Assembly: GCA_021325295.1 (NCBI GenBank)
Contig: JAJPHM010000079.1
Location: 1 to 50,729 of the forward strand
Direction of reading: 5' to 3'
From: Nitrososphaeraceae archaeon
Lineage (GTDB): Archaea > Thermoproteota > Nitrososphaeria > Nitrososphaerales > Nitrososphaeraceae
DNA length: 50,729 bases
In this document: positions 42,790 through 45,275 of the stretch, piece by piece
Layout of the letters: every line of letters starts with the position of its first letter
Numbering within the stretch: the first letter of the stretch is position 1
Translations under genes and position numbers: made by a program
The notes under the pieces: model-generated
Database searches by the model: none
Told to the model about the DNA's origin: nothing
What the model saw: only the letters and a program-made list of their open reading frames with translations

Positions 42790-43428
42790 ATGTCCGTTTC
42801 AGCTCATCCACCTGATGACCTAGCAAATGACGCCAGCTACATTGGTAGAGCGTTATTAGTAAATGGTAACAGAATAGTTGTCAGCGAACAGCGATTTCAG
42901 GATGAGCTTCACACAAAGGGATTTGGAGAAAAAGAAGGCACAGAATATCTACTCAAGCCCTACGAAGCCCTTTATCTTGCATATGTAAAACGTCTTGAAC
43001 TCCATGATGGTAGCAAAAGTACTACAGGCGATAAAAATGGACAGTTTGACTTTGACTCACTCTTTGAAGTCCTAGTCAGACAAGATAAAAGCATCTTGAC
43101 AAGATTCTTGATCTACCGCGATCTGAGGAGCAGGGGCTATATTGCAAAAGAAGGTTTTGGCTTTGGAATCGATTTCAGAGTATATGGAAGAGGAGAATTT
43201 GAGAAAAAACCGGCAAAATATGTAGTGTTTGCGATAAATGAAGGAACCAATGCAAAGGCTAGGAAATTTTTTACCATGATAGAACAGATAGAAAAGATGG
43301 GAAAGGAAGCAATTATAGCTGTCATAGAAAGAAGAGGTGAAATAATATACTACAAAGCCTCGAGAATGCGGTTTGGGGAGAATCATTACAACACAAAAGT
43401 GAGATCTGCCGGGGCTCTGTTAACTTAA
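42790..43428 (+). CDS. endA: tRNA-splicing endonuclease EndA family subunit, 3' end altered by IS insertion
   Basis: 212 residues as it stands. LIYRDLRSRGYIAKEGFGFGIDFRVYGRGEF contains the EndA core with the catalytic-type Tyr132; however the following EHSKYLV-like histidine motif is KKPAKYVV, so the usual catalytic His is absent. A lysine near residue 172 (MGKEAIIAV) is in the expected place. It is either the structural partner of a heterotetrameric enzyme or a changed active site. Start ATG at 42790 about 30 nt after GCTTAAATG (TATA), preferred over GTG 42763. The last six codons before TAA (from AGG... in the target duplication) come from an IS6 end: originally SAGTEIYK, now SAGALLT. Confidence 0.85.
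   Translation: MSVSAHPPDDLANDASYIGRALLVNGNRIVVSEQRFQDELHTKGFGEKEGTEYLLKPYEALYLAYVKRLELHDGSKSTTGDKNGQFDFDSLFEVLVRQDKSILTRFLIYRDLRSRGYIAKEGFGFGIDFRVYGRGEFEKKPAKYVVFAINEGTNAKARKFFTMIEQIEKMGKEAIIAVIERRGEIIYYKASRMRFGENHYNTKVRSAGALLT
43405..43412. repeat. Left copy of 8-bp target site duplication (TCTGCCGG)
   Basis: TCTGCCGG directly before the left inverted repeat of the insertion sequence. Matches the right copy exactly, indicating a simple transposition without later rearrangement. Confidence 0.95.
43413..43428. repeat. Left terminal inverted repeat of the IS
   Basis: GGCTCTGTTAACTTAA, perfectly matched to the right end. It supplies the new TAA stop of endA (43426-43428) and, on the other strand, the stop of the transposase. 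Confidence 0.95.
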
Positions 43429-44066
43429 CCACCGTCCCTTGCCAAGTATGTGGTAAACCGTATTCTGTCAGCTCCCGCATTGATATAGAATAAAAATAAT
43501 TTCAGCCAGTTCCAGACATGACGCCTATTACAATCTACTTTTCTGCATGGAAAATGGTCATCAAAACATTCTGTCCTATCCTTGATGTTCTGTATGAATC
43601 GTTCCATCAAATTCTTCAATGGTGTACCATAAACGCGATGTCGCATCCTCAACCATTTGCAAGCATCTACATACCACGGAGCACCATCCGTGAAAATGGG
43701 TTTCCTGCCATATCTATCCCTCAGTTTCCGGAAGAACCGGTAACAGACAAACAACGTCCTCTCCCTCGATAAATGCATCATGAGACATGAATTGAGGGCA
43801 GGCTCGTATGCAATCCACAGCCAGTAGTCCTGCCCATCTATCTGAACCAATGTCTCGTCAACAAATATCGCTCTAACCAGTCGTCTGTCTGTCCTAAACC
43901 TGTCTGCATAATCTGAATACCTCTGAACCCATTTCCAGATAGCGACATGGCTTCTCTTTACTATAGATGATAGGCATCTGGCAGCTAACCTGAAGCTTCT
44001 AGAACTATAATATAGATACAGGCCGTACCTGATTATGGCTGGGTCTGTCCTAGTTCTGTACATCAT
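43425..44066 (-). CDS. IS6-type DDE transposase
   Basis: 213 residues. An N-terminal HTH region (AARCLSSIVKRSHVAIWKWVQRY) is followed by a DDE catalytic core: FVDETLVQIDG (Asp70), IFTDGAPWY (Asp127), and NLMERFIQNIKDRTE (catalytic Glu near 155). Layout and length are those of short archaeal IS6/IS240-like transposases. It fills most of the 711-bp element and appears intact, so the element may be active. Confidence 0.92.
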   Translation of the reverse strand: MMYRTRTDPAIIRYGLYLYYSSRSFRLAARCLSSIVKRSHVAIWKWVQRYSDYADRFRTDRRLVRAIFVDETLVQIDGQDYWLWIAYEPALNSCLMMHLSRERTLFVCYRFFRKLRDRYGRKPIFTDGAPWYVDACKWLRMRHRVYGTPLKNLMERFIQNIKDRTECFDDHFPCRKVDCNRRHVWNWLKLFLFYINAGADRIRFTTYLARDGG

Positions 44067-44107
44067 AGCAATGACAGGCTAGGACATTCCTAGCTATACG
44101 GATTACC

Positions 44108-44123
44108 TTAAGTTAACAGAGCC
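44108..44123. repeat. Right terminal inverted repeat of the IS
   Basis: TTAAGTTAACAGAGCC, the exact reverse complement of the left repeat, 42 nt upstream of the transposase start. Confidence 0.95.
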
Positions 44124-44150
44124 TCTGCCGGGACTGAGATATATAAATAG
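44124..44150 (+). pseudogene. endA: Detached 3' end of endA with right target duplication
   Basis: The right duplication TCTGCCGG (44124-44131) continues in the endA frame as ACT GAG ATA TAT AAA TAG, i.e. the original TEIYK and stop. Removing the IS and one duplicate restores an uninterrupted endA C-terminus. The same bases ATATATAAATAG may also serve as TATA box for the next gene. Confidence 0.85.
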
Positions 44151-44174: not shown

Positions 44175-44336
44175 TTGGATACAAAGGAAGTTTACTGCCA
44201 TGATTGCGGAGCCGTCCTCGCTAAATTCAATACCAAATATTTCTCGGACGCAGATATTACTGAACTCTTACGCCTTCATTATTCATCTCACATAAAAAGC
44301 GGGCACCAGCTAGAAACAAGAATAGTCGAGAAGTGA
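44175..44336 (+). CDS. 53-residue C2H2-like zinc microprotein
   Basis: From TTG 44175: MDTKEVYCHDCGAVLAKF, then NTKYFSDADITELLRLHYSSHIKSGHQLETRIVEK. One CxxC with His residues at 35, 39 and 44 suggests a single C2H2-type zinc finger. It starts 25 nt after the original endA stop and so was probably next to or cotranscribed with endA before the IS arrived. No function known. Confidence 0.6.
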   Translation: MDTKEVYCHDCGAVLAKFNTKYFSDADITELLRLHYSSHIKSGHQLETRIVEK

Positions 44337-45125: not shown

Positions 45126-45275
45126 TTGGTAAAGAGACTATGTGAAAGCTGCTTTTATAATGGAGAGGAGTCTGAATTTATGGCTGCAAGCGATTTTTGC
45201 ATCGATTGCATGGGAGTTCATTCAATGTGCCCGAAATGTAAAGCCGGCTTTCACAGCGTACACGTTATTGAATAG
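45126..45275 (+). CDS. 49-residue zinc-ribbon microprotein
   Basis: From TTG 45126: MVKRLCESCFYNGEESEF, ending MCPKCKAGFHSVHVIE. Three CxxC pairs (CESC, CIDC, CPKC) and two late His residues suggest a double zinc site. It is 21 nt downstream of the DUF6659-like gene and probably cotranscribed. Confidence 0.6.
   Translation: MVKRLCESCFYNGEESEFMAASDFCIDCMGVHSMCPKCKAGFHSVHVIE

Follow-up and report, generated by a model that had tools for sequence, protein, structure and literature searches.

What happens to a gene of the tRNA-splicing endonuclease family when a mobile element enters its 3' end, and what happens to the gene behind it? This question is raised by an endA-like gene in the window, that is, the whole stretch of 50,729 nt from a Nitrososphaeria-type archaeon that was analysed here; the affiliation of this archaeon is judged from named relatives of the transposase. 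An initial annotation proposed that an IS6 element starting at 43405 had rewritten the last residues of this gene; we checked the region 43405–44150 by direct reading of the sequence, by open reading frames and by repeats. No tRNA was found in the 50,729-nt window by ARAGORN, and the window gave no Rfam match.

The insertion and the endA reading frame

The features of the junction are as follows.

43413–44123, minus strand: archaeal IS6-type insertion sequence, 711 bp (direct read, ends and duplication)
43405–43412, no strand: left target duplication TCTGCCGG, exact match to the right copy
44124–44131, no strand: right target duplication TCTGCCGG, exact match to the left copy
43413–43428, plus strand: left terminal inverted repeat, GGCTCTGTTAACTTAA, containing the new endA stop and the transposase stop
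44108–44123, minus strand: right terminal inverted repeat, complement of GGCTCTGTTAACTTAA (repeat search and end count)
42793–43428, plus strand: endA-like gene for a non-catalytic (beta-type) tRNA-splicing endonuclease subunit, ending SAGALLT-TAA (PF01974, PF02778, TIGR00324)
44132–44150, plus strand: orphaned original endA 3' end, comprising the last base of a Gly codon, the T-E-I-Y-K codons and TAG (in-frame restoration)

The inverted repeats of the 711-bp element start with GGCTCTG and are complementary at 16 of 16 positions, and the target duplication TCTGCCGG is identical at all eight positions on both sides, as had been claimed. The length of 711 bp stood as well, while position 43405 proved to belong to the first duplicate, the element itself beginning at 43413. 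Such ends and duplication exceed chance, because the genome contains 11 exact occurrences of the 16-bp end and none of the reversed control sequence, and because exact 8-bp duplications surround seven related elements with the same type of ends, one in this genome (L053) and the others in relatives (L060, L062, L065, L066, L067 and L069).

The endA-like gene starts with the ATG at 42793 and now stops at the TAA at 43426–43428, inside the left end of the element. When the element and one duplicate are removed in silico, the frame ends with SAGTEIYK and the TAG at 44148–44150; the net change in the protein is therefore the replacement of five residues (TEIYK) by four (ALLT). Both the present and the restored end had been given in this form, and the reconstruction of the empty site by the initial annotation is right as judged from the reading frames. 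The left end is entered one base in: after a single G, the codons GCT, CTG, TTA and ACT and the stop TAA are read, giving ALLT. The endA and transposase genes are convergent and overlap by 4 bp, since their stops (that of the transposase at 43425–43427, minus strand) share the palindrome TTAA.

The gene was previously supposed to have survived by borrowing a stop from the transposon. The stop does come from the element end, but the notion of a rescue fell away, as stops occur in most frames and the tail is variable, leaving little to rescue. Upon inward reading from either end of the element, five of the six frames stop within 2–6 codons and the sixth after 26, so that a short foreign tail is expected from most insertions into genes in either orientation. 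Judging by these frames, the ALLT tail with its stop is the default outcome to be predicted from the insertion, and no special rescue would be involved.

The partner subunit and its variable tail

The product of the endA-like gene matches PF01974 (E = 2.4e-21) and PF02778 (E = 2.1e-7) and reaches 64.6 bits with TIGR00324 (cut-off 59.6). Its alignment with the Methanocaldococcus enzyme 1a79 demonstrates that the catalytic Tyr and Lys are kept and that Pro occupies the position of the catalytic His. A His is found there in only one of 29 aligned relatives, the remaining 28 having another residue, while a paralogue on a different contig (G000:C26:50785) has the full Tyr-His-Lys triad. Two endA-like genes are present in most genomes of the same family. 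The alpha2-beta2 type of tRNA-splicing endonuclease was assigned to Thaumarchaeota in a review (PMC4090602), and, as in the alpha2-beta2 enzymes of Thaumarchaeota and Crenarchaeota considered there, we see a pair of paralogues, of which one has the catalytic triad and the other is structural. The window gene fits the structural partner of such a two-gene endonuclease; its reading as the catalytic subunit was rejected, as Pro at the His position leaves the triad incomplete. The earlier description as an essential tRNA-splicing gene thus needs amendment: membership in the splicing endonuclease family is retained, the gene is that of a non-catalytic partner subunit, and its essentiality is plausible given the predicted structural role in an alpha2-beta2 enzyme.

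Unlike the solved 1a79 domain, the partner subunit has a variable C-terminal extension past the domain end. Its Pfam domain reaches to residue 186 of the 211, leaving the altered residues outside. Among 39 relatives, the tail following the conserved YYK comprises 11–32 residues (median 22) of varied sequence; in the window, it has 23 residues now and 24 in the restored form. The TEIYK end, proposed earlier as a test of the insertion, was sought in these 39 relatives and found in none of them. Since the tail is conserved neither in sequence nor in length, this absence is uninformative and cannot discriminate, and the insertion is not refuted by it. The replacement of the five tail residues was probably neutral, and the partner subunit with the ALLT tail would presumably still work.

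The zinc microprotein and the cost of the insertion

On the other side of the element, the following features are to be considered.

44175–44336, plus strand: zinc microprotein of 53 aa with a TTG start and CHDC and His-rich motifs (conserved endA neighbour, intact frame)
44140–44149, plus strand: TATATAAATA, probable TATA box in front of the zinc microprotein gene (from the sequence and relatives)

The microprotein matched none of the Pfam and NCBIfam families at cut-off. A CxDC...LA protein is encoded directly 3' of endA in 30 of the 39 relatives, which bears out the neighbourhood that the initial annotation had suggested looking for, and its first Cys codon lies 35–92 nt past the endA stop. 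In the window, the corresponding distance is at present 767 nt; in the restored site it is 45 nt, a value within the range of the relatives, which provides a further, independent argument for the empty site. The restored TAG (44148–44150) is followed after 25 nt by the TTG at 44175, so the claim that the IS separates endA from a small zinc protein gene starting 25 nt after the original stop was accurate. In relatives, TTG, GTG or ATG is often found seven codons before the first Cys of the microprotein (L011–L038, L072–L082). A second small Cys-rich ORF (CESC, CIDC, CPKC) is located farther downstream, at 45126–45275, and similar ORFs occur past endA in several relatives.

The putative TATA box TATATAAATA overlaps the old TEIYK codons and their stop, lies wholly to the right of the element and precedes the TTG start by ~33 nt. 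Several relatives have TATA-like boxes at the matching place, and their mean best score of 5.95 of 8 was equalled in none of 2000 shuffles; as the stretch had been selected after inspection, this counts as support and not as an unbiased test. Four relatives of the Nitrososphaera type that were examined for such a box (L011, L012, L013 and L023) show no clear one before the microprotein, which is explained by the microprotein start overlapping or nearly touching endA; co-transcription of the two genes is possible in these relatives. In the window, the microprotein gene probably keeps its own promoter, the element having landed to the left of it.

We consider it very probable that this locus represents an insertion of an IS6-type element into the tail of a non-catalytic endA, with an 8-bp duplication, a stop supplied by the element and both neighbours most likely working. 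In this reading, the 3' end of the non-catalytic subunit gene received an archaeal IS6-type element by transposition, 8 bp being duplicated; translation now enters the element and halts at the TAA in the inverted repeat, ALLT replacing TEIYK; and, as the change affects a variable C-terminal extension and lies left of the probable microprotein promoter, both neighbouring genes most likely still work. The insertion appears to be recent, and it is probably ordinary and harmless, with a small functional effect.

It is unlikely, although of all alternatives this one has most in its favour, that the insertion harms the locus and is tolerated by the strain, the subunit being weakened or the microprotein silenced by the loss of co-transcription with endA. 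The close neighbourhood of endA and the microprotein is conserved in those 30 of 39 relatives, the overlap of its start with the endA stop in some Nitrososphaera-type relatives suggests a single transcript, and 711 bp with an opposing transposase gene now lie between the two genes; nevertheless, the tail of the endA protein is variable, the microprotein frame is intact, and the TATA-like box is kept at its distance before the TTG. We give distinctly less credit to the insertion being functional and not neutral, with endA uncoupled from a conserved, co-transcribed microprotein gene (a splicing-linked pair) and the subunit tail changed. It is more doubtful still that the insertion was selected because the element end improves the tail or brings advantageous regulation of the neighbours: the intact frames on both sides agree with this and nothing else does, while the end-proximal stops built into the element yield a short tail by default.

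The element, its relatives and the significance of the locus

The transposase gene of the element is described first.

43425–44066, minus strand: transposase of 213 aa, intact (PF13610; DDE residues D70, D126, E155)

The transposase matches PF13610 (IS240/IS6-type DDE; E = 4.5e-11, 43.5 bits, above the cut-off of 27), and its acidic triad was placed by alignment with relatives. Its best NCBIfam model is NF033587 transpos_IS6 (E = 7.4e-29), with 100.9 bits, below the curated cut-off of 125. From the archaeal signatures (PMC6807381), W---F fits WLKLF, while E--F---K-R is represented by ERFIQNIKDR, having E, K and R in place and F one residue early. The element has the 8-bp target duplication used to define IS6 in the broad sense, as well as the near-perfect ends starting with GG (16/16) and a size (711 bp) within the ~700–890 bp given in PMC7986276. 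The archaeal members were kept within IS6 by the latter paper, and argued not to belong in IS6/IS26 by another (PMC6807381). The miss at NF033587 fits the published view of archaeal members as distant, and the element was filed on these grounds as archaeal IS6-type, not strict IS6/IS26; the original label "IS6" is valid in the broad archaeal sense (ends, duplication, PF13610), though not at the NCBIfam IS6 cut-off. The known archaeal IS6-type elements (ISH14, ISH29 and others; PMC6807381) are similar in their ~700 bp, GG-starting ends of ~14–17 bp and 8-bp duplication, and their transposase has ~211 aa versus 213 here; the host in the present case is a Nitrososphaeria-type archaeon, and the likeness to these members refers to the published sizes, ends and duplication.

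The search for more copies of the 711-bp IS, suggested earlier, returned a single one: no near-identical second copy was found in the 79-contig draft assembly, the best other match having 82% identity over ~110 bases, and the others in general ~82% or less at the ends or 44% in the protein. For the other nine exact 16-bp ends, the distance to a contig end is ~110 bp at most where the end is visible. At contig ends (L002–L006, L008, L055–L058), the assembly is interrupted by a multi-copy sister IS that shares this 16-bp end. Four pairs of contig ends are matched by duplications, three by 8 bp (C6 and C17 by CTGCCGCT, C56 and C60 by AACAGAGC, C35 and C69 by GCTCTTTT) and one by 7 (C63 and C31, ATTATTC). 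L053 (G000:C15:41870-42481) is a more distant IS6-type element of 724 bp with 44% identity and the exact 8-bp duplication CAACTTCC. Related transposases were revealed in 40 of 61 genomes searched; a complete genome of the same family (G025) has six identical copies with 79% identity to that of the window. The IS of this genome (L060) resembles the window element in its ends and exact 8-bp duplication, but is 705 bp long, has one mismatch between the ends and is not at endA. Although the assembly is a draft with related elements at contig ends, an artefact or a chance repeat is hardly credible and was rejected, since the element is single and fully assembled, with no near-identical copy to collapse, and both its duplication and its ends match exactly, as is typical of this type.

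A mobile element supplying a new stop to a host gene was described in Nitrososphaera evergladensis SR1 (NitEve-E2; PMC6563490), where, as here, insertion at the 3' end removes the native TAG and brings its own TAA, the frame staying open. In the case of NitEve-E2, the element is an integrated one, and its 13-bp attachment site lies in the gene for a zinc-finger protein, whereas we deal with a small transposase-type element, an 8-bp duplication and endA. The endA insertion is a new clean example, an element-supplied stop being already known in the same lineage.

This locus may be regarded as a clean textbook case in which a mobile element enters a housekeeping gene with hardly any cost, because stops occur in most frames at the element ends, the tail is unconserved, and the probable promoter of the next gene lies just beyond. 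The more useful by-product of our analysis is the pair of endA and the zinc microprotein, which is conserved in this archaeal family and may point to an uncharacterised tRNA-splicing partner.
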